The translations under genes and the position numbers were made by a program. From a virus, in IMG/VR virus record IMGVR_UViG_3300032053_000143, positions 1 to 45,796 of that record: a stretch of DNA of 45,796 nt. One strand, 5' to 3'. Below, in pieces: positions 1,174-38,084 of this stretch (its first letter is position 1; each line of letters opens with the position of its first letter). Under the pieces are notes generated by a model. It was not told the origin of the DNA. It was given only the letters and a program-made list of their open reading frames with translations, and made no database searches.

Positions 1174-1620
1174 ATGCAAAATCAAGACTTTACTAAATTC
1201 GAATTTCTTTTAACTCTAGAAAGAAACATAGTTATTCAAAGATATTTTAATGTTCCTAATTATAATCCAAAGACCAGAAATTCGCTATATTTATACGAAT
1301 GTGTAAAATATATTTGTGAGGAAATTGCAGAGGATTTGAAAATGAAAACATTGGATTATTTAAATGAAGATCACAAATCTTTCCTCGATTTCAACTATGA
1401 AGAACTCACCACTAAACCCGATGAAGAGTATTTTTTATTAAGAATATTATTGGGTGAAGAAGTATTTATTTCTAGGATTTTCCCTGCTCATATTTATCAT
1501 CCAAAAGCAAGATATGCGGTGGATATTAGGCCGAAGGTTAGAAGAATATTATTAGATTTAACGAATGTTTTATCAGCTGATGTCACAACTAACACCTACC
1601 TACAATATGAGATAAGTTAA
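1174..1620 (+). CDS. Unknown 148-aa protein between exonuclease and helicase
   Basis: I do not recognise a family. The protein is 148 residues, mixed charge, probably mostly helical in the first two thirds (Tyr- and Glu-rich stretches such as LYLYECVKYICEEIAED). It has a basic patch, RPKVRRILLDL, near residue 122-132. There is no signal peptide and no membrane segment. It starts 4 nt after the exonuclease stop and ends 18 nt before the helicase start, so it is almost certainly co-transcribed with replication genes. A role as an accessory factor of the replisome, such as a helicase loader or adaptor, is a guess from position only; no loader motif is visible. Confidence 0.6.
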   Translation: MQNQDFTKFEFLLTLERNIVIQRYFNVPNYNPKTRNSLYLYECVKYICEEIAEDLKMKTLDYLNEDHKSFLDFNYEELTTKPDEEYFLLRILLGEEVFISRIFPAHIYHPKARYAVDIRPKVRRILLDLTNVLSADVTTNTYLQYEIS

Positions 1621-1638
1621 GAGTGAAAATATATAGAA

Positions 1639-3276
1639 ATGAACGATAAAAATTTTGGTTATTTAGGAACAGGATTTCAGCAGCAACTGCTTAAAACAAT
1701 CGTCGAGGACAAGAAATTTTCAATTATAATAATAGATTCCATAGAAAGTAAGTATTTCGACGGCCCTTACTTTAAATATCTTATGGAAAATATAAAAGAG
1801 TTGTATAACTTATATGGGGTAATCCCTGATTATACGACACTTGAACAAAAAATATTAAAAGAAAATCAGGGAATTTCAAGTAGGGTACATATAGATACCT
1901 TGAACGCAATTCGTGAGCTCGATCTGCCAAATGCGGGGTATGTCAAAGATACGTCATTAAATTTCTGTAAACAACAGGTGATGAAAAAATCACTGAAAGA
2001 AGTTGAGGAAATTATGAATAATGGTGATTTCGAGGAATATCATAAGATCGAAGAAATTATTCAGAAAGCGTTAATGGTGGGATCAACAACTGATTCTGTG
2101 ATAGATATTTTCGAAAATGTCAGAGAATCGCTAGAAGACGATAATAGAATTCCATACCCAACAGGAATTGTGGGGATCGATAATCTTCTTAAAGGTGGAA
2201 TTGCTAAACGTGAACTTGCTCTATTGATCGCTCCGCTTGGTATTGGGAAAACTAGTTGGCTTACTAAGGTAGCAAACACCGCCTATAATGTTGGAGGAAA
2301 TGTTTTACATATATTCTTTGAGGATAATGAAAATGATATTCGAAGAAAACATTACACATGTTGGACAAAATATTCCGATACAGAACAAAGGGATCATAAG
2401 GACGAAGTCGTTCAAATTGTTGCGGAAAAGAAGTCAAGTAAGAATTTTCTTAAACTTGTAAAACTGGCACCAATCGGAGTTTCGGTCAGTGATATTAGAT
2501 CAATAGTGAGGAAGATGAGATCAGAAGGTCAACATATTGACATGTTGGTTATTGATTATGTCGATTGTATTTCAAGTGAAAGGGCAACTGATGGTGAAGA
2601 ATGGAAAGGTGAAGGAACGATTATGAGAAGTCTGGAGGGGATGAAAGATGAATTCAATATTGCAATATGGGTGGCAACACAAGGTAATCGTGAGAGTATA
2701 TCATCTGAGGTTGTTACAACAGATCAGATAGGAGGATCAATTAAAAAGGCACAGATTGGACACGTTGTGATATCAGTAGGTAAAACCCTTGAACAGAAAG
2801 AACATAATTTGGCTACGGTTACATTACTTAAAAGCCGTATCGGTAAAGACGGAGTGGTATTCACAAATTGTAAATTCAATAATGAATATCTTGATATCGA
2901 CACGGATACACAGAATACTCTTCTTGGTCATGAAGAAGAAAAAGCCGAGAAAAAGAGAGAACATATAGCTGAAGTATATAAGGCAGGTAGAGAAAAAGAG
3001 ACCAAGCTTATAACTGAACAAGTTAATAAGATATTGGAATCAAAAATCACTACTCTTAATCAATCCCATGAAATTGAACAAACACAAGAAGTGATTGATG
3101 AAGTTGGTGCCATTGAGATTAAAGATGATATTGAGGGAGCAACTGAAGGAGCTGTTGTAAAAGATGAAATATCACAAGAAGAAAAAAATAAGCAAAGGTT
3201 AAAGGATCTTGCCAAAAAGAAAAAGTTAGAAGAGACGCATAAATGGCTGATGGAATCGGAGGTGAACACCACCTAA
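1639..3276 (+). CDS. Replicative DNA helicase, DnaB family (T4 gp41-like)
   Basis: Hexameric 5'-3' replicative helicase with a RecA-type motor. The N-terminal about 165 residues are helical (primase-interacting type). The motor carries Walker A APLGIGKTS at 198-206, Walker B MLVIDYVDC at 302-310, the sensor ATQGNRE at 346-352 and the arginine-finger region KSRIGKDG at 398-405. The match to the DnaB/gp41 motor is good. Unusual for the family is a tail of about 115 residues beyond the motor (430-545), rich in Lys and Glu and predicted coiled or disordered, which explains the length of 545 against about 475 for T4 gp41 and E. coli DnaB. It lies between the 148-aa unknown gene and the ribonucleotide reductase; the primase is far away, at 38259. 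Confidence 0.92.
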   Translation: MNDKNFGYLGTGFQQQLLKTIVEDKKFSIIIIDSIESKYFDGPYFKYLMENIKELYNLYGVIPDYTTLEQKILKENQGISSRVHIDTLNAIRELDLPNAGYVKDTSLNFCKQQVMKKSLKEVEEIMNNGDFEEYHKIEEIIQKALMVGSTTDSVIDIFENVRESLEDDNRIPYPTGIVGIDNLLKGGIAKRELALLIAPLGIGKTSWLTKVANTAYNVGGNVLHIFFEDNENDIRRKHYTCWTKYSDTEQRDHKDEVVQIVAEKKSSKNFLKLVKLAPIGVSVSDIRSIVRKMRSEGQHIDMLVIDYVDCISSERATDGEEWKGEGTIMRSLEGMKDEFNIAIWVATQGNRESISSEVVTTDQIGGSIKKAQIGHVVISVGKTLEQKEHNLATVTLLKSRIGKDGVVFTNCKFNNEYLDIDTDTQNTLLGHEEEKAEKKREHIAEVYKAGREKETKLITEQVNKILESKITTLNQSHEIEQTQEVIDEVGAIEIKDDIEGATEGAVVKDEISQEEKNKQRLKDLAKKKKLEETHKWLMESEVNTT

Positions 3277-3283
3277 AAAATAT

Positions 3284-3301
3284 AGGAGAAATATGCAATA
3301 G
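3284..3301 (+). promoter_or_regulatory. Shine-Dalgarno-like site with a two-codon ORF in the nrdJ leader
   Basis: In the 54-nt gap between helicase and nrdJ there is a purine-rich AGGAGA at 3284-3289 placed 3 nt before ATG-CAA-TAG (3293-3301). The nrdJ start at 3331 has no Shine-Dalgarno of its own. The pair may be chance, or a minimal upstream ORF that keeps ribosomes near the nrdJ start. There is no cobalamin-riboswitch-sized leader in this gap. Confidence 0.2.
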
Positions 3302-3330
3302 AAAATAAATTAAAACAATAATATAATCCT

Positions 3331-5901
3331 ATGACAGAACAACCAGGAAAACCGTATACAAGATATACAAAAGACGAAGTAATAAAAGCAACCACAGCAT
3401 ATTTTAAAGGAGACGAATTAGCCGCAGATGTATGGACCAAGAAATATTGTTTAAAAGATGAACATGGTTATTATGAACTCACTCCAGATGATATGCACTG
3501 GAGAATTGCTAACGAATTGGCAAGAATTGAATTAAAATATGAAAATCCACTATCTGCAGAGGAAATTTATAAAACTCTTAAAGGGTTCAATAGAATAATT
3601 CCACAAGGATCTCCAATGTCGGGAATTGGTAATGATTTTCAAGTGGTTTCACTTAGTAATTGTTTCGTTATTGGAAACGATGGTGAATCTGACAGTTACG
3701 GTGGAATAATGAAACTCGATCAAGAGTTGGTACAATTGGAAAAGAGACGCGGAGGCGTTGGAATGGATCTTTCATTTGTTCGTCCTAACGGAAGCCCAGT
3801 AAAAAATAGCGCTATTACATCTACTGGCGTTGTTCCTTTTATGAAAAGATTTTCTCGTAGCACTGAAGAAGTAGCACAGGATGGTAGAAGAGGAGCTTTG
3901 ATGGAGAGTATATCAATACGGCATCCAGACGCCGAATTATTTATTGACGCTAAATTGGCTCAAGGAGCAGTTACTGGAGCAAATATTTCAGTTAAGATAC
4001 ATGATGATTTTATGGAAGCGGCAATGTCAGGAATTCTATATAACCAACAGTATCCAGTATCGGGTGACGCAAAATACACAAAAGTAATTGATCCCCAAAA
4101 ACTCTGGAAGAAAATTATATATAATGCATGGAAATCAGCCGAGCCAGGAGTTCTTTTCTGGGATCAGATTATACGGGAGAGTATTCCTGATTGTTATGCA
4201 GATCAGGGATTCGCCACGATTTCAACCAATCCTTGTGGTGAAATTCCTCTATGTCCCGATGATAGTTGTCGGTTATTATGTTTAAATTTATTTGGGTATG
4301 TAATAAATCCATTTACAAAAGAATCAGAATTTAATTGGTCTCTTTTTATAGATGATGTCATTAAAGCTCAAAGATATATGGATGATATTATTGACTTAGA
4401 AATTGAAAAGATTGACGCAATATTGAGTAAAATTGAGTCAGATCCAGAATCTGATATGTTGAAAATGGTGGAAAAACAGATGTGGGAACGAATTAAAACA
4501 AAAACAATTAATGGCCGTAGAACGGGTCTTGGTGTTACAGGTGAAGGTGATATGTTGGCGGGTTTAGGATTAAGATATGGCACAGATGAAGCGACCGATT
4601 TCAGTGTTCAGGTTCATAAAACACTTAAATTAGAAGCTTATTGGTCTTCTACTTTTCTGGCAGAAGAACGAGGATCATTTCCAATTTATGACGCTCAAAA
4701 GGAAAAAGATAATCCGTTTATAAATAGAATTTTAGAAGAATGCCCAACTTTATGGGATCATATGATGATACATGGCCGTAGAAATATTGCATTACTTACC
4801 ATCGCACCAACAGGGACTTCAAGTATTATGACGCAAACAACATCAGGGATAGAATGCTGCTTTGCCACATATTATAAGAGGCGTAGAAAAATAAATCCAC
4901 AGGAAAAAGATGCTCGAGTTGATTTTATAGATCCAGAGGGAATTTCATGGCAGGAATATCCCGTATTTCATCATAAATTTGAAATGTGGCTTGAAATTAA
5001 TGGATATGATATTAATGCTGTGAGATTATTAAAAGATAATGATCTTGAAGAAATTATAAAACAGTCACCATATTATAAAGCAACGGCTAATGATGTGGAT
5101 TGGGTTAGAAAAGTTGAGATGCAGGGTAAAATTAATCGTCATGTTGATCATAGTATAAGCTGCACTATAAATTTGCCATCAGATGCAACCGAGGAACTCG
5201 TTTCTAAGGTCTATGAGACAGGTTGGAAGTCGGGATGTAAGGGAATGACTGTTTATCGAGATGGTAGTCGTAGCGGTGTCCTAATCACTAATACGGACAA
5301 AAAAGAGCCAGAGGAGATACATGTGCCTAAGCGTCCGAAGAGGTTGAAAGGTGAGATTCATCGTTTTCAGAATAATTCTGAAAAATGGATAGCTGTCGTC
5401 GGATTGAGAGATGGAAGGCCAATTGAAATCTTCACAGGTAAACTTGAAAATGGATTAAGTAATTTATCACCAAGTATAAAAGAATGCGAAGTTGTAAAAA
5501 ATATCATAGAAGCTGAGATAATGGATGTCGACACCAACACAATGGTAAAAACCAGAATCAAAAGATACGATATTGAGTATGTTGACCCTAATGGCGTTAA
5601 ACAGGTTCATGAAGGTCTAAACCAAGCATTTAATCCTGAATTTTGGAATTACGCAAAATTGGTGTCAGGAGTTTTGAGACATAAGATGCCGATAATTTAT
5701 GTATATGAATTAGTTGAATCTTTGAAATTTCCAGAAGTTCACATTAATACATGGAAAAATGGTGTACTTCGAGTAATAAAAAGATATATCAAAGACGGAC
5801 AGAAGGGTAAAGGTAAATGTCTCGAATGTGGAAGTGAGAGTTTAGAATATAGTGAAGGTTGCCTCACTTGTAAAAGTTGTGGTAGCAGTAAATGTTCCTA
5901 A
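3331..5901 (+). CDS. nrdJ: Adenosylcobalamin-dependent (class II) ribonucleotide reductase
   Basis: Reduces ribonucleotides to deoxyribonucleotides using a thiyl radical generated from coenzyme B12, so it needs no R2 subunit and no oxygen. Key residues are visible: the redox Cys111 in SLSNCFV, the active-site loop NPCGE at 300-304 with radical Cys302, the partner Cys317 in LLCLNL, the phosphate-binding IAPTGTSS at 491-498, and the class-II signature GCKGMTVYRDGSR at 635-647. The C-terminal tail has six Cys (830, 833, 844, 847, 850, 855) forming the zinc-ribbon and swinging-arm cysteines typical of NrdJ. Length 856 fits NrdJ. Residues 670-815 form the usual NrdJ C-terminal extension. No nrdA, nrdB, nrdD or nrdG is in the window. 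It is the last gene before a strong terminator. Confidence 0.93.
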   Translation: MTEQPGKPYTRYTKDEVIKATTAYFKGDELAADVWTKKYCLKDEHGYYELTPDDMHWRIANELARIELKYENPLSAEEIYKTLKGFNRIIPQGSPMSGIGNDFQVVSLSNCFVIGNDGESDSYGGIMKLDQELVQLEKRRGGVGMDLSFVRPNGSPVKNSAITSTGVVPFMKRFSRSTEEVAQDGRRGALMESISIRHPDAELFIDAKLAQGAVTGANISVKIHDDFMEAAMSGILYNQQYPVSGDAKYTKVIDPQKLWKKIIYNAWKSAEPGVLFWDQIIRESIPDCYADQGFATISTNPCGEIPLCPDDSCRLLCLNLFGYVINPFTKESEFNWSLFIDDVIKAQRYMDDIIDLEIEKIDAILSKIESDPESDMLKMVEKQMWERIKTKTINGRRTGLGVTGEGDMLAGLGLRYGTDEATDFSVQVHKTLKLEAYWSSTFLAEERGSFPIYDAQKEKDNPFINRILEECPTLWDHMMIHGRRNIALLTIAPTGTSSIMTQTTSGIECCFATYYKRRRKINPQEKDARVDFIDPEGISWQEYPVFHHKFEMWLEINGYDINAVRLLKDNDLEEIIKQSPYYKATANDVDWVRKVEMQGKINRHVDHSISCTINLPSDATEELVSKVYETGWKSGCKGMTVYRDGSRSGVLITNTDKKEPEEIHVPKRPKRLKGEIHRFQNNSEKWIAVVGLRDGRPIEIFTGKLENGLSNLSPSIKECEVVKNIIEAEIMDVDTNTMVKTRIKRYDIEYVDPNGVKQVHEGLNQAFNPEFWNYAKLVSGVLRHKMPIIYVYELVESLKFPEVHINTWKNGVLRVIKRYIKDGQKGKGKCLECGSESLEYSEGCLTCKSCGSSKCS

Positions 5902-5986: not shown

Positions 5987-6436
5987 ATGGCGACATACGG
6001 TATAGATTATCCATTTAGAGATAGTCAAATTGGAAATTATTTAAGAATGACTTCGACACCTGAGAGGGAAGTTAGAGCTGATCTTATACATTTATTATTA
6101 ACAAGAAAGGGTAGTCGATACTTTTTACCTGATTTTGGTACTAGATTATATGAATATATTTTCGATCAAAATGATGTGGTGGCATTTAACCACATAGAGG
6201 ATGAAATAAGAGAGGGGATACGAAAGTACATTCCCAATTTAGATGTAAATTCAATAACTATTATGTCAGCAGAGGACGATCCTGAAACTCCCCCAATGCC
6301 AGCAGAAGAAGAAGATGCTCGTTTGTTTAGAGTTTCTGATGACTCATCTAAGCCATATACAGCAAGAGTTAAAATAGATTATACCGTTAATAATGGAACA
6401 TTTTCAACATCAGATTTTATAATTATCAACATATAA
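5987..6436 (+). CDS. Baseplate wedge protein, gp25-like
   Basis: Member of the GPW/gp25 family, the small wedge protein that joins gp6 and the sheath initiator in contractile tails. Length 149 is normal (T4 gp25 has 132). The family core is visible: a helix ending in ADLIHLLLTRKGSR (about 31-44), then LPDFGTRLYEYIF (about 47-59) with the conserved FG, then an amphipathic helix and a beta strand near the end. It is the first gene after the terminator, and its stop overlaps the next start by one base (TAATG), indicating translational coupling. The gp6-like gene is two genes downstream, matching the usual gp25-gp6 neighbourhood. Confidence 0.88.
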   Translation: MATYGIDYPFRDSQIGNYLRMTSTPEREVRADLIHLLLTRKGSRYFLPDFGTRLYEYIFDQNDVVAFNHIEDEIREGIRKYIPNLDVNSITIMSAEDDPETPPMPAEEEDARLFRVSDDSSKPYTARVKIDYTVNNGTFSTSDFIIINI

Positions 6437-7125
6437 TGGGAAGGATAAAACTATATGATATTGTAACAGAATCAATTGAAAAAGATATGTTTGAAGGATT
6501 TGACGAAAGTGAATTAAAAGAAGATTATCCAGTTAATTTTGATATTTTTAGTTTTAAAAATATGAGAAGTTATGCTGAAAAGGTAAGATACGCAGAGACT
6601 CATTTAGGTAAACCATTAGGTAGAGGTTCATCACGATTGGTTTATAGGGTAGATGAGAATAAAGTATTAAAAATTGCAAAAAATAAAAAAGGTATCGCTC
6701 AGAATGAAGCTGAAATAAATTGGGCTGACGATTATTACTTTGAAGATATATTAGCTAAAGTTTTTGATTATGATAGAGATAATAGTTACTGGACTGAAAT
6801 GGAAGTCGCATTCAGAGCAACTATTAATGATTTTAGAAGGTTGTGGGGAATAAACTTTAAAGATTTATGGGGTTATCTTAAAATGAAACATGCTGAAAAT
6901 AATGGTAGAAGGTCAATGTTTCATATCGAGCCTGAAGTAATAGAACAATTAGATAATAATGAACATGTTGCACAGCTTATAGATTTTATGATGAATTCAG
7001 ATTCACCAGATGGTGATTTGAGTAAGTTAAATTCATGGGGCCGTGTACATAGATCTGAAGGAGATACTTTAGTTTTAATTGACTTCGGACTAACAAATGA
7101 TGTATATCAATCATATTATGCTTAA
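6436..7125 (+). CDS. Protein-kinase-like protein inside the baseplate operon
   Basis: A 229-residue protein with the order of motifs of a minimal protein-kinase fold: a glycine-rich loop LGRGSSRLVY at 61-70, a VLKIAK strand with candidate ATP-binding Lys79, a Glu91 in NEAEI for the salt bridge, an Asp194/Asn199 pair in GDLSKLNSWG where the catalytic loop should be, and DFG at 216-218 near the C terminus. The domain ends just after DFG, so the activation segment and most of the C-lobe are missing. It could be a small active kinase of the aminoglycoside-kinase type or a pseudokinase with a structural role. It sits between gp25- and gp6-like genes with a TAATG overlap upstream, so it is expressed with the baseplate. 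Fold assignment is from motifs only. Confidence 0.6.
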   Translation: MGRIKLYDIVTESIEKDMFEGFDESELKEDYPVNFDIFSFKNMRSYAEKVRYAETHLGKPLGRGSSRLVYRVDENKVLKIAKNKKGIAQNEAEINWADDYYFEDILAKVFDYDRDNSYWTEMEVAFRATINDFRRLWGINFKDLWGYLKMKHAENNGRRSMFHIEPEVIEQLDNNEHVAQLIDFMMNSDSPDGDLSKLNSWGRVHRSEGDTLVLIDFGLTNDVYQSYYA

Positions 7126-7136
7126 TAAATAAAAAA

Positions 7137-8969
7137 ATGTCAAAAGGAATATCATACGCCCAAAGGGATTTCGCCAGTCTTAGAGATGACTTGGTGAAGT
7201 TAACACAACAATACTACCCTGATTTAATCTCTAATTTTAACGATGCGTCAATTTATTCGGTATTATTAGACCTAAATGCTGCGGTAGCGGATAATCTACA
7301 CTTTCATATTGATAGAGTATGGCAAGAAACAATGTTAGATTTTGCCCAGCAAAGACAATCATTATTTCACATTGCTAAGACATATGGAATTAAACTACCA
7401 GGACTAAGGCCATCTGTCGCGTTATGTGACTTTAGTATAAATGTGCCGGTTAATGGAGATAAAGATGATGAAAGATATGAAGGAATATTAAAAGCGGGAT
7501 CTCAAGTCTCAGGCGGTGGACAAGTTTTTGAAATTGTTGAAGATGTGGATTTTTCAAGTCCTTTTAATAGTAGAGGCGAATCCAACAGGTTAAAAATACC
7601 GAATTTTAATACTAACAAAAAATTAGTATCATACACAATAACAAAAAGAGAAGCCGTTATTAATGGTATAACAAGAATATATCGAAAAGTTATTACCGAT
7701 GTGGATCAGAAACCATTTTTAAAAATATACCTTCCTGAAAAAAATGTTTTAGGAGCGATGTCCGTAATACACAAAGACGGAACAAGTTTTGGTGGAAACC
7801 CAACATCAGATGAATTCATTTCTTCGCCAAATAAATGGTACGAAGTTAAATCATTGATCGAGGATAAAGTTTTTATTGAAAATTCAACAGAAGCATCCGA
7901 TAGTGAGAATTTTAAAGCTGGTGATTATGTTAAAGTTACTAATAAATTTTGTACGGAATACTTACCCGAAGGTTATTTTGTGTTGACTTTTGGATCTGGC
8001 AATGTTGATCCAATGGATAATTTAGACAATTATATGAGTGGAACAATGAATGTAAATCTAGCGACATTCTTGAATAACACATCATTGGGCGCAATACCAA
8101 AACCAAATACGACATTGTTTATAAAATATAGAATTGGTGGAGGTAAAGATACAAATATTGGTATTAGCGTTATAACGACCATGGACACATATGATTATAT
8201 GGTAAATGGTCCAAATGTTTCGATAAATAATCAAGTGAATCAATCAATGAGAGTAACGAATGTTACTCCAGCAATTGGTGGGGCAGATGCTCCAACGATT
8301 GAAGAAATAAGAAATATGATAGCCTATAATTTTGCCGCACAGAACAGAGCGGTAACATTAAATGATTATAAATCAATGATTGAAACCATGCCATCTACTT
8401 TTGGAGCTCCAGCTAAAGTTAATGTGATGGAAGAAGATAATAAAGTTAGAATTAAAATGTTATCATATGACGAAAATGGTAATTTAATTGATACCGTTTC
8501 AAATACATTAAAAAATAATGTGTTAAATTATCTTTCTAATTATAGGATGCTAAACGATTATTTAGATATACAAAGTGGTGAAGTGATAGATATGGGGTTA
8601 GAAATCGATTTAGTTGTCAATAAGAACGAAAACTCAACAGACATTATAAAATCCGTTATTGAACAGACAACAGCATTTTTTGATCCCGCAAAAAGGAAAA
8701 TGGGAGACCCATTATTAGTTGGTGATTTAAAAAGAGAAATAGGTAATGTTGCTGGCGTCGTAAATGTGGTAGATATCAGAGTATTTAATAAAACAGGTGG
8801 AAGTTATTCCTCATCTCAGGTATCTCAGTCATATGTAAGTAATGTAACTAAAGAAATTCGTCAGTCAGATAGTACCATATATATGAAGTCAAATCAGATA
8901 TTTCAGATTAGATTCCCCAATGTGGACATAAAAATAAGAACAAAAAATCTCTCTTCGACTACATACTAA
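7137..8969 (+). CDS. Baseplate wedge protein, gp6 / baseplate J-like
   Basis: A 610-residue protein with the layout of T4 gp6 (660 aa). An N-terminal helical part (ISYAQRDFASLRDDLVKL, about 5-22, then a long helix ending DFAQQRQSL) has the look of gp6-like wedge proteins that start by binding gp25. A baseplate-J core follows around 415-470 (IEEIRNMIAYNFAAQNRAVT and the LNDYKSMIETMPS stretch). The C-terminal quarter has a dimerisation-like FFDPAKRKMGDPLLVGDL segment at about 520-537. It would form the wedge that closes the ring of the baseplate. It starts 11 nt after the kinase-like gene and its neighbours support the call. Confidence 0.85.
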   Translation: MSKGISYAQRDFASLRDDLVKLTQQYYPDLISNFNDASIYSVLLDLNAAVADNLHFHIDRVWQETMLDFAQQRQSLFHIAKTYGIKLPGLRPSVALCDFSINVPVNGDKDDERYEGILKAGSQVSGGGQVFEIVEDVDFSSPFNSRGESNRLKIPNFNTNKKLVSYTITKREAVINGITRIYRKVITDVDQKPFLKIYLPEKNVLGAMSVIHKDGTSFGGNPTSDEFISSPNKWYEVKSLIEDKVFIENSTEASDSENFKAGDYVKVTNKFCTEYLPEGYFVLTFGSGNVDPMDNLDNYMSGTMNVNLATFLNNTSLGAIPKPNTTLFIKYRIGGGKDTNIGISVITTMDTYDYMVNGPNVSINNQVNQSMRVTNVTPAIGGADAPTIEEIRNMIAYNFAAQNRAVTLNDYKSMIETMPSTFGAPAKVNVMEEDNKVRIKMLSYDENGNLIDTVSNTLKNNVLNYLSNYRMLNDYLDIQSGEVIDMGLEIDLVVNKNENSTDIIKSVIEQTTAFFDPAKRKMGDPLLVGDLKREIGNVAGVVNVVDIRVFNKTGGSYSSSQVSQSYVSNVTKEIRQSDSTIYMKSNQIFQIRFPNVDIKIRTKNLSSTTY

Positions 8970-22200: not shown

Positions 22201-25200
22201 TAGAATCCTCGTCACCAATTTATAGTGGTGATACTAGTTGTGAATTATTTGCTGATTTATATTTTACCGTTAGTGGAGCTACTGGAGATGAAATGGGAAG
22301 AGGATCGGTTTATGTACATCAGGAATGTGATAATGATGTGAATGTTAACCCAAAAATACAACAAGTTGCGCCATGTGTGTTTATGATAAGTGGTTTTAGC
22401 GAATGTGATCTTATTCATTTAATATTCACAGATGCTTCGAATTGTGAACAAAGAATAGAAGTTGACGGTCTACAATTAATGGTCGTTGAAGTAGATACTA
22501 ATATTAGTGGATTTACTACAAATCCAATAGTAGAATATAGACCAAGTTTTAATTATGGATTAAGAAAAGGAACTGCTGTTTATAAAGTTATTGGATCCCC
22601 ATCGATTCCATCAACATGGGAAGATCTTATCACAGCAATAGCAGGAGGTAGTATTAGTGGAATAACAATCGAGAACATATCAATTGGTGATACAGTATTA
22701 TCTCTTTCTTTAAAACCTTATGGTGATTTATCCGCTCAAGATTTTAACGATGCATATATTAATGGATATCAATTTGCGTTCGATTATGATTTTATTACTG
22801 TTGAAAATAAAGAATGTTTTAGTACGGTAAAATCACACATTGTTAATGAAGAATTTGAGATTTTACCGACGAGTAAAATATTAGTGTATACTAATATGAA
22901 TACTCAATTAGAGACTGTATTATATCATTTTGAGTATAAGTACCCAGAAGATCTTTATATTGGAGATTTTATGATTAATCAATATGGATTTCCAATTGAA
23001 GTATCTGGAATCACATTAAATTATTGTAGCGATGATAATTATAAAAAAATATATTATCAAATAAATGTTAGTGGAAGTTCGGATAATGGTTATGTTATTT
23101 TATTTAATGGTGAATTAGGTAATACTAATAATATCATAGTAAGGTACACCGAAGAAAAATTTGATAATATAGACTACAATCTACATCAATATTTTGTTGC
23201 ATATGGACAAGATGAGAATTCGCCAATAAATCGACAGTTTATAAGATCTTGTGGACCTAATGGATGGACTGGGGCTACTGAATGTGATGATATAATTGTA
23301 AATGTTTCACCAACACCAAGTATATCTATATCGGCAACTGCTACACCTACTCCAACGCCGATGGCAACGGCAAGTCCGACTCAAACTGTAACACCAAGTA
23401 TAACACGAAGTATAACACCAAGTATAACACGAAGTATAACACCAAGTATAACACCAAGTATAACACCAAGTATAACACCAAGTAGATCACCGAGTATAAC
23501 GCCAAGCAGGACTCCAACTACAACACCACTTCCTGTACCAAGCAGAACACCAAGCAAGACACCAAGTGCAACACCAAGCAAGACACCAAGCAAGACACCA
23601 AGCATTTCGATAGCTCCGAGTAGAGAGCCGAGCAGAACGCCAAGCGTAACACCAAGCAGGACATCAAGTGTAACACCAAGCATTTCTATACTTCCAAGTA
23701 GAACTCCAAGTAGAACTCCAAGTACGACACCAGATATAATTCCAAGTATGACACCAATTATTATGATAACCAGGACGCCAAGCCGGACTCCAAGTATAAC
23801 GCCAAGCAGAACGACAAGTATAACGGTAACGCCAACGATAAGTAAAACTCCAAGTATGACTCCATCAACAACAGCATGTGATGTAGATGGAATACTTATT
23901 GGTATTACTCGTATACTTGAACCATCGCCAACACCAACACCAAGTACAACGCCAAGTATTACCCCAAGTGTTTCTCCAAGACCAATATATTATGGATGTA
24001 CAGAATGTAATTTAGATTTTTCTAGTGTATCTGGTGGATATTTCTTATCAGCAGGTAATTTAACTTCTACTTGTACTGTTGGAGAATATGTTATCGAATG
24101 GAGAACAGATAGTATAAGCGGGCCAATAGAGCTTATATCTGGATCTGAAGGCGCTCCTGATATACAACAAATACATCCATTTACGAATGATATTGTTCCA
24201 CAGGGAACATATTATCCAGTTATTAAGTATGTTTATTTAAATGGTATTAAATATACTCCATATTTAAGTGAATTATCTGGAGGCGCACGATATAGTCCTG
24301 ATTTGTTGACATGTATTGATACGGAGATTATTATTTCTCCAATTACATGTTCATCAGTATTAAGTGACGATACTGTTTATCCGTTTGTTCTAACATATAG
24401 AAATGCCGTTAATACAAGCGAAGATAAATCAAGAACACTATCGTTTGGGTTGTCAAATACAATAACTTATTTTGCATGGGAATTCGCAGCTTTTGATGTT
24501 GCAGATCAATTAAAAATATCATATTGTAAACCAGGTGATCCAATAGGCATATTACTTGATAACTTTATTGTTGGAACAAGATCATCTAGTGGGGTTCAAA
24601 ATTCATTAGTGACAGATCTTTATCCTGCAGATTATCCAAACAATCCTAAAATATATAACTATGGATTGTATATGCATCGGGCATATGGAGTTAAATATGT
24701 AACTGACCTATCAGGATTATCAGATATTGGAAACTTTGCAGATGAAGGCGGTTATTTAAAAATTGAAATACTTGGTGCTATTTACGAACCAACTAATCTT
24801 GATACCAACTGGGATATTAGAATGAAATGTTTTGATAGTGTTGATTTATCGTTCCCAGATACAGATATAAGTAAAATATCGGGTGGCGTACAGATAGCAT
24901 ATTCTGGAGATCCAGATTGTTATTTTAATTTGACTTACAATACAATTAGTTCATTTACAACATCAGATATAGATTATAAACCATATTCACCGTATTTCTT
25001 ATGGAAATATACGGATATGTATGTAACAGTTTATCCTAATTCTGTCTCAAATATGTATGGGACAAATCCAGCAAATGTAACCAATACTTGGAAAGATACA
25101 TCATATAATGATCCATGGATATGGAACGGAAGCATTTATCAATGTACTAATTTATCAACGCCAGAAGATACAGCAACCGTAACGCCAATATCAACAACGG

Positions 25201-36643: not shown

Positions 36644-37252
36644 ATGGAGAATGAATTAAAATTGAAGAATAAACCAAAGATTCTCGGACTTGATATTTCA
36701 ACCAAGACAATCGGCTGGGCAATATTCGATATGAATAACTCGACCTTATTAGAGGCGTCTCACTTTACGCCTAAAATTAAACCTTTACCTGAAGATAAGA
36801 TCGAGGAATTAATTAAGAAAGCTGATGCGTTTAAACATCATCTTGAAAAATATAAAGATTATAATATTGTACGCGTGATAATTGAAGAACCTCTCTTGCA
36901 GGCTAACAATATTTATACCGTTGGAACTCTTATGAGATACAACGCGATGATATTAAAAATGTGTTATGATATATTTGATACCGTTCCATCATTTATTTCA
37001 ACATATAACGCAAGAAAGTATGCATTTCCCGATTTATTCAGGGAGAATAATAAAGGAAAGGTTGTATTATTTGGGGGATTTCCTGTTGATACGGATAAGA
37101 AGCGTATAATATGGGAACATGTTAATGCCGTTTGTCCAGAAGTTAATTGGATATATGATAAAAACGGAAAATTAAAAAAAGAAAACTTCGATATCTCCGA
37201 CGCCATTACTTGCATAATTGGCCATATTAATATGATAAGATCGAAGGGTTAA
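36644..37252 (+). CDS. RuvC-like Holliday-junction resolvase / RNase H-fold nuclease
   Basis: RuvC-family nuclease that would resolve branched replication and recombination intermediates before packaging. The RNase H-fold acidic residues are in place: Asp17 in LGLDISTKTIGWA (14-26), Glu81/82 in IIEEPLL (79-85), and Asp183/Asp186 in FDISDAIT (182-189). Length 202 is slightly above E. coli RuvC (173). It is the first gene after the virion block. Its last 26 nt overlap, tail to tail, the end of the leftward HNH gene, so the insertion lies right at its stop. RuvC-like phage proteins vary in specificity, so 'Holliday junction' is inferred from the family. Confidence 0.85.
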   Translation: MENELKLKNKPKILGLDISTKTIGWAIFDMNNSTLLEASHFTPKIKPLPEDKIEELIKKADAFKHHLEKYKDYNIVRVIIEEPLLQANNIYTVGTLMRYNAMILKMCYDIFDTVPSFISTYNARKYAFPDLFRENNKGKVVLFGGFPVDTDKKRIIWEHVNAVCPEVNWIYDKNGKLKKENFDISDAITCIIGHINMIRSKG

Positions 37253-38084
37253 TATCATATTTTGATTTTTTAATATCTCTATTTATTTTACTACAAAGTG
37301 GCTGTAAGTTAGTATAATGATTTAAATTAATTACATCTTCTTCTGTTTTAGCAATAGAAATTGGTATAATATGGTCAATATCCCACCCATAATTAATTTC
37401 GCCATTGTATTTACCATAATTATCCCAAGTCATCCAATTCTCGAGCCGTGATTCGATATAGGTTTTAAATTCTTTAAATGTACATCCTAATATTTCATGT
37501 GTTCTACTTGTTTTTTTATATCCATTCTTCTTAAATGACGCATAAATTGATGATCTAATGGTACATGTTAAAGCAAATATAGGATCAATTTTTCTCTTTT
37601 TATTTCTATATATATTCCTAACTTGCATTTTTCGTTCTTTATTATTAACATAATAGATATTATGAGATTTTAGAATTTTTTCTTTATTCTTTTCATAATG
37701 TCTTTTTGATGATATCTTCATTTTTTTCAATAATATATCTCGATGATCATTATAGTATTGTTTTGATTTTTCATTTAATGTGTTTTTATTTAATTGGTGA
37801 TAATTTCTTGAACGAATATTATCTTGTTCTTTATTATTTTCATAATATATTTTTTGTTTTTTTAGGAATGATTCTTTGTTTTGTATATAATAAATTTTCT
37901 TTTTTTCATTTAATATGTCTTTATTTTTTTCATTATATTTATTTATAATTTTTCTTCTACATTCTTTACATTCGCTTCTATACCCATTTTTTGTATCTTT
38001 ACGAATATCGAACTCATTTAACAATTTTTCGACATTACATTTTGAGCAGATTTTAGTTTTTATATTTTCTATTTTGATGTCCAT
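37227..38084 (-). CDS. HNH endonuclease with N-terminal zinc ribbon (probable selfish element)
   Basis: The only leftward gene in the window. Residues 13-42 hold two CxxC pairs (C13/C16 and C39/C42), a zinc ribbon. Residues 45-165 are strongly basic, with about six imperfect repeats of 15-20 residues around IYYxxNKE, a spacer type common in phage HNH proteins and probably DNA-contacting. Residues 231-270 carry the HNH nuclease: YGWDIDHIIPIS with Asp237/His238, then NLNHYTNLQPLC and NRDIKKSK. No neighbouring gene needs it, and it sits in opposite orientation between ruvC-like and primase genes, as free-standing homing endonucleases do. Lysine and isoleucine content is even more AT-driven than in its neighbours. 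Confidence 0.85.
   Translation of the reverse strand: MDIKIENIKTKICSKCNVEKLLNEFDIRKDTKNGYRSECKECRRKIINKYNEKNKDILNEKKKIYYIQNKESFLKKQKIYYENNKEQDNIRSRNYHQLNKNTLNEKSKQYYNDHRDILLKKMKISSKRHYEKNKEKILKSHNIYYVNNKERKMQVRNIYRNKKRKIDPIFALTCTIRSSIYASFKKNGYKKTSRTHEILGCTFKEFKTYIESRLENWMTWDNYGKYNGEINYGWDIDHIIPISIAKTEEDVINLNHYTNLQPLCSKINRDIKKSKYDINPSILSY

Follow-up and report, generated by a model that had tools for sequence, protein, structure and literature searches.

Between two genes for baseplate wedge proteins, at positions 6436–7125 (+ strand), the viral DNA analyzed here (the 45,796-nucleotide IMG/VR record IMGVR_UViG_3300032053_000143, hereafter the window) encodes a 229-residue protein that we identify with high confidence as a kinase fold cut down to its catalytic part. 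The best explanation, to which we assign a probability of roughly 57%, is that this minimal, C-lobe-less kinase is an effector, optional and exchangeable, that a T4-type myovirus carries as cargo in its head and ejects in the manner of the T4 protein Alt.

Genomic context

The list of open reading frames in the window confirms the gene as first described, with 229 codons, a one-base overlap with the gene on its 5' side, and an 11-nucleotide spacer before the gene on its 3' side. The former (5987–6436, +) shares its last base with the kinase start (..ATATAATGG..), and its assignment as gp25-like is upheld by Pfam PF04965 (E = 1.6e-13); the latter (7137–8969, +) is upheld as gp6-like (gp6/Baseplate_J) by PHROG 6 (E = 9e-21). 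Judged from the overlap, stop-start translational coupling of the kinase to gp25 is plausible, and late expression alongside the baseplate genes can reasonably be inferred, the alt genes of T4-like phages, with a packaged effector encoded near baseplate genes, providing a precedent (PMC5512222). In the T4 record, alt adjoins baseplate genes 48 and 54. The observation in the original prediction that T4 has no such gene between gp25 and gp6 is inapplicable, because gene 25 of T4 precedes gene 26, not gene 6, which makes T4 a poor reference for this gap. The two genes do adjoin in the cultured gp6 relatives Flavobacterium phage immuto and Microcystis phage Mel-JY01. Elsewhere in the window, an ORF at 37227–38084 (−) resembles HNH homing endonucleases by eye, with Cys pairs and a HIIPIS motif, and overlaps the end of the ORF at 36644–37252.

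A kinase fold without the canonical C-lobe

The window protein is a member of PHROG 4301 (profile E = 4.2e-15), a family without an assigned function, and neither it nor any of 62 homologues matched a family model in Pfam or NCBIfam. One scan of viral contigs revealed relatives encoded at 126 loci, of which 80 were retained; alignment A1 was unsuited to the genome scan, its sequences being too diverse. Conservation was computed over 90 non-redundant domains, with 62 single-copy or first-copy domains as a subset. The residues on which the kinase assignment was originally based do follow one another in kinase order: a glycine-rich loop, GRGSSRLVY (residues 62–70; 6619–6645, +), the β3 Lys79 predicted to bind ATP (6670–6672, +), helix-C Glu93 (6712–6714, +), the catalytic-loop Asp194 within GDLSKLNSWG (7015–7017, +), Asn199, and the DFG motif Asp216-Phe-Gly218 (7081–7089, +), after which the protein continues for just 11 residues. 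Across the 90 domains, Lys79, Gly202, Asp216, and Gly218 are 100% conserved and Asp194 is 97% conserved, the remainder being Glu; Gly64, Arg67, Glu93, and Asp194 are also invariant among the 62. The "DFG" is D-x-G across the family, Phe217 usually being replaced by Tyr. Homologues without the Lys, Asp, and DFG residues had been named as what would refute the assignment; instead, Lys79 and DxG are kept throughout the 90 domains and Asp194 nearly so. With relatives encoded at 126 loci and this conservation across the 90 domains, the order of the residues is more than chance. The element that does not hold up is Asn199: the Mg-binding Asn position is mostly Ser in the family, even in the close relatives L013 and L014.

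The gene is irregular at some loci. In L022 and L023 (6001–6666), the kinase match reaches 5' beyond the earliest start codon available to the called ORF (6187), which may reflect a frameshift, an odd start, or an assembly error, and in L031 (5986–6681) and L083 (5986–6652), the kinase frame is broken into two ORFs, possibly through decay, an intron-like insert, or an assembly error.

With the family alignment as input, AlphaFold predicts a block spanning residues 31–220 (pLDDT ∼84–97) made up of the glycine loop, β3, helix C, β4/5, helices, the catalytic loop, two strands, the DxG, and a short last helix; residues 1–28 are of low confidence, and the N-terminal region is predicted to be disordered. 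An N-lobe β-sheet with helix C and the glycine loop is present by both AlphaFold and Foldseek. The canonical C-lobe, comprising helices F–I and the activation segment, is absent 3' of the DFG in both the sequence and the AlphaFold model. The best Foldseek matches in the PDB are protein kinases and aminoglycoside phosphotransferases (probability ∼0.9–1.0, best E = 1.1e-4), with global TM scores that are low (∼0.3–0.38), as expected because much of the kinase fold is missing. The only PDB sequence match of note is SteC, an effector kinase of Salmonella, whose profile match (E = 2e-4) is weak but correctly placed, covering ∼58 residues that include the glycine loop and the β3 Lys; SteC differs in being a secreted effector of a bacterium. 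What remains of the original expectation is therefore the N-lobe and catalytic loop, with their conservation and the SteC match, and what has to be given up is the full bilobal kinase. The depositors of phage Muenster also concluded, by HHpred, that their homologue is a kinase. We predict that the window kinase is catalytically active, and consider this likely.

An optional gene in a conserved operon

Among IMG/VR relatives with gp6 72–97% identical, the gp25-gp6 gap is empty in 71 of 80 resolved rows and filled by the kinase in nine, which include the window and two rows added for carrying the kinase. The nearest relative of the window, L107, with a 97% identical gp6, lacks the gene. On the gp6 tree, presence and absence of the kinase take eight changes, at least six of them forced by well-supported branches. 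A particularly clear case is provided by L011, which has the kinase, and L113, which does not: their flanks are near-identical, and the diverged segment between them, consisting of the 3' half of gp25, the kinase when present, and the first ∼150 nucleotides of gp6, has sharp edges. Unless one of the contigs is chimeric, the difference is a natural recombinational swap. In eight gap-empty contigs of the gp6 lineage (up to 311 kb), no copy of the kinase was found elsewhere. Between carriers, kinase identity is 53–86% where that of gp6 is 74–90%, and dN/dS is 0.08–0.36 for the kinase versus 0.05–0.13 for gp6; in many comparisons synonymous sites are close to saturated. The kinase diverges faster than gp25 and gp6 at a dN/dS below 0.4. 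The kinase is not a baseplate gene; it is optional and exchangeable and has been repeatedly gained and lost.

Other variation is seen on the 5' side of gp25. The ribonucleotide reductase gene located there ranges from ∼805 to 1,213 residues among relatives (856 in the window; L012 at 1504–5145, L153, and L172), possibly through inteins or insertions. Variable cargo ORFs just 5' of gp25 have an N-terminal LTE[EQ]IxRI (L109, 3837–4550; L110, 3094–3834; L108, 813–1421; L119, 3942–4550; L174, 3059–3787), and the stand-alone kinase of L046 begins similarly, with LNEELQRI.

A candidate capsid-targeting propeptide

Residues 1–13 of the window protein (MGRIKLYDIVTE|S; 6436–6474, +) constitute a candidate capsid-targeting propeptide with a putative gp21-type cleavage site after Glu12. 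Carriers of the window lineage with a complete N terminus all have an opening segment of 10–14 residues ending in [IV]xE|S (LVE|A in one), an ending that is conserved although the region is predicted to be disordered and the protein evolves fast. The pattern [LIVM]xE[SAGN] occurs within the extension in 24 of 31 stand-alone relatives, compared with 5.8 ± 2.1 in shuffles, an excess that is inflated by relatedness. Among cultured phages, XacN1 (..FLSE|A) and Slickus01 (..LLE|A) encode tagged kinases. As controls, T4 has sites of the same kind in gp23 (FLTE|A) and gp24 (MAKINELLRE|S), both annotated in the T4 record as cleaved by gp21, and gp23 of jumbo phages has LLNE|S, LINE|A, LLTE|N, or MNE|S at around residue 60. 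A gp21-type protease was found in six and gp23 in all seven of the genomes tested; both are present in the larger gp6-lineage relatives G010 and G011, the window contig itself being a fragment. The N-terminal propeptides of Alt and the T4 internal proteins are short, 10 residues being enough to target IPIII (PMC9026906).

A matrix built from the kinase tags also picks out N termini of non-kinase proteins, with 8 versus 0.8 in genome G004 and 7 versus 1.1 in G020, the kinase of which was in the training set; the excess is weaker in G021 and G010. Besides the kinase, the proteins tagged in G020 include a P-loop kinase/phosphodiesterase and a tRNA nucleotidyltransferase; a further one, encoded next to gp23 (24470–25009), is ADP-ribosyltransferase (ART)-like by eye, with no match in Pfam. 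G004 also has a tagged ORF adjacent to gp23 (210778–211350). No other ORF of the short carrier contigs G018 and G019 has an N terminus tagged according to the matrix, and the window contig (28 genes, incomplete) has no second tagged protein. The loose motif [LIVMF]xE[SANG], sought at any N terminus, shows no excess in G020 (47 N-terminal versus 53 internal) and is uninformative alone; the signal came from the longer patterns, the matrix, and the kinase-restricted test, and the patterns were partly picked post hoc, with the data in view. Pairwise N-terminal similarity is enriched in G020 and G010, partly because of signal peptides, and is not enriched in G011 or in G018 and G019. The literature yielded no virion proteomics of any carrier and nothing decisive on detection of homologues in virions; passages of the RaK2 and XacN1 papers do not name the homologue as a virion protein. 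From sequence patterns, we think it somewhat probable that the tag is a head-packaging propeptide and that the kinase is packaged in the virion.

Relatives in other phages

In other phages, the kinase domain is either stand-alone or located at the N terminus of proteins of 640–2,230 residues, away from gp25 and gp6. In these large proteins the kinase domain is often duplicated or triplicated in tandem (L043, L058, L081, L042, and others), and the later copies have lost the helix-C Glu and the glycine-loop Arg and kept the Lys, Asp, and DxG. Fusion partners include polyA/CCA polymerase (tRNA nucleotidyltransferase), 2'-5' RNA ligase (LigT)/Acb1-like phosphoesterase, SAM lyase, ART-PolyVal, amidoligase, and DUF5824. 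Such polyvalent-type fusion to other conflict domains is a property of the homologues, the window protein itself being single-domain. A similar repertoire of polyvalent proteins, including a C-lobe-less kinase, Kinase-PolyVal, was described by Iyer et al. in 2017 (PMC5512222). In G021 (L281, 225982–237849), the kinase and a tagged neighbor, possibly an acetyltransferase, lie directly 3' of portal-gp21-gp22-gp23 on the same strand, and both have N termini of the [LIV]xE type.

The "putative protein kinase" of PHROG 4301 in Klebsiella phages Muenster and K64-1 and in Salmonella phage Munch belongs to the same family and has the same core, at 25–30% identity. Unlike the window protein, these enterobacterial members are untagged, show Asn at the position of the catalytic-loop Asp in the alignment used here, and lie in early-type regions; the Muenster copy is in the terminal repeat among small genes. 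A 121Q-type homologue is also encoded by Sharanji (OR545507), a phage of E. coli K-12. Because the RaK2/121Q-type homologues have no N-terminal tag, there may be more than one route of delivery for the kinase domain.

Kinase-PolyVal (PF18762), which occurs mainly in Bacteroidetes and Verrucomicrobia-Chlamydia, shares with the window family the loss of the C-lobe, the occurrence within large polyvalent proteins of phages, and the existence of stand-alone versions (PMC5512222). Its catalytic-loop motif, DLHDEN, is unlike that of the window family. Membership was rejected, since the PF18762 HMM had no match at E 10 in six viral records and hhalign gave a probability of 2.2% versus 1.9% for a negative control. 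On these sequence comparisons, we file the window family outside Kinase-PolyVal, which it resembles in mode of use.

Competing interpretations

The third role originally suggested, that of a pseudokinase used structurally, would make the protein a component of baseplate structure or assembly. Its position between two wedge genes, with a one-base overlap, and the lack of conservation at the canonical Mg-binding Asn speak for such a role. This is nevertheless very improbable. The baseplate operon is conserved but the kinase gene within it is optional, 71 of the 80 relatives that have this gp25-gp6 pair (among them one with a 97% identical gp6) lacking it, while Lys, Asp, and DxG are retained; homologues elsewhere, moreover, lie away from these baseplate genes. 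The same fold could alternatively serve a small-molecule or nucleotide phosphotransferase of the aminoglycoside phosphotransferase (APH) type. Foldseek places APH(2'') enzymes among its best matches, and the usual peptide-substrate platform is missing from the reduced C-lobe. Against this stand the protein kinases among those same top matches, SteC, an effector protein kinase, as the closest sequence match, and the fusion of the domain to protein- and RNA-modifying enzymes, and we regard an APH-like activity as unlikely.

A more serious competitor, if still an unlikely one, is a late protein kinase that is retained, unpackaged, in the infected cell, where it would act in superinfection exclusion, late takeover, or modification of phage proteins, its N terminus being a docking or disordered stretch. 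The late operon position would suit such a role, and the untagged RaK2/121Q-type homologues, with the Muenster copy in a terminal repeat, indicate that the domain can act without packaging. It leaves unexplained, however, why a gp21-type ending is found in most stand-alone relatives and why enzymes with no relation to the kinase are tagged in G004 and G020. Phage kinases that modify host proteins are known, as in the case of T7 gp0.7 (PMC5512222). Unlike the packaged kinase proposed here, gp0.7 is an early protein made inside the cell.

Proposed function and implications

Of the originally suggested roles, the injected effector is the one favored: the protein has the N-terminal tag, homologues are fused into polyvalent proteins, and one relative encodes its copy in the head operon, although packaging and ejection are inferred. 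The kinase gene is a clean insert between gp25 and gp6, gained and lost repeatedly and, in at least one contig pair, by recombination. In the packaged-cargo reading, its product would be made late, from the gp25-gp6 transcript via stop-start coupling; the tag would bring it into the prohead core, where a gp21-type protease would clip the tag, as happens to the T4 internal proteins and Alt; and the kinase would then be ejected with the DNA to phosphorylate one or more host proteins, for takeover or counter-defense, like the polyvalent fusion partners. The likeness to Alt and IPI–III would lie in late synthesis, the short N-terminal propeptide, and, presumably, head packaging and ejection. Alt itself is an ADP-ribosyltransferase with no homology to the kinase, and its packaging has been proven experimentally.

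A broader and more tentative proposal, for which we would offer slightly less than even odds, is that in T4-type jumbo phages tags ending in [LIVM]xE|(S/A/N) serve as an address by which a swappable arsenal is directed into the head. The arsenal would include the minimal kinase and ADP-ribosyltransferase-like, acetyltransferase-like, and tRNA-repair enzymes, with the giant polyvalent proteins as its fused form; the window kinase would be one module, exchanged by homologous recombination via the flanking baseplate genes. As a natural experiment, the gp25-gp6 gap offers relatives that have or lack a single cargo gene, L011 and L113 being a near-isogenic pair with and without it. If the proposal is true, tag and cleavage site together would allow the cargo in the heads of uncultured jumbo phages to be read from sequence and the ejected effectors to be put to the test, and a packaged kinase effector would add phosphorylation to the ADP-ribosylation carried out by Alt of T4.
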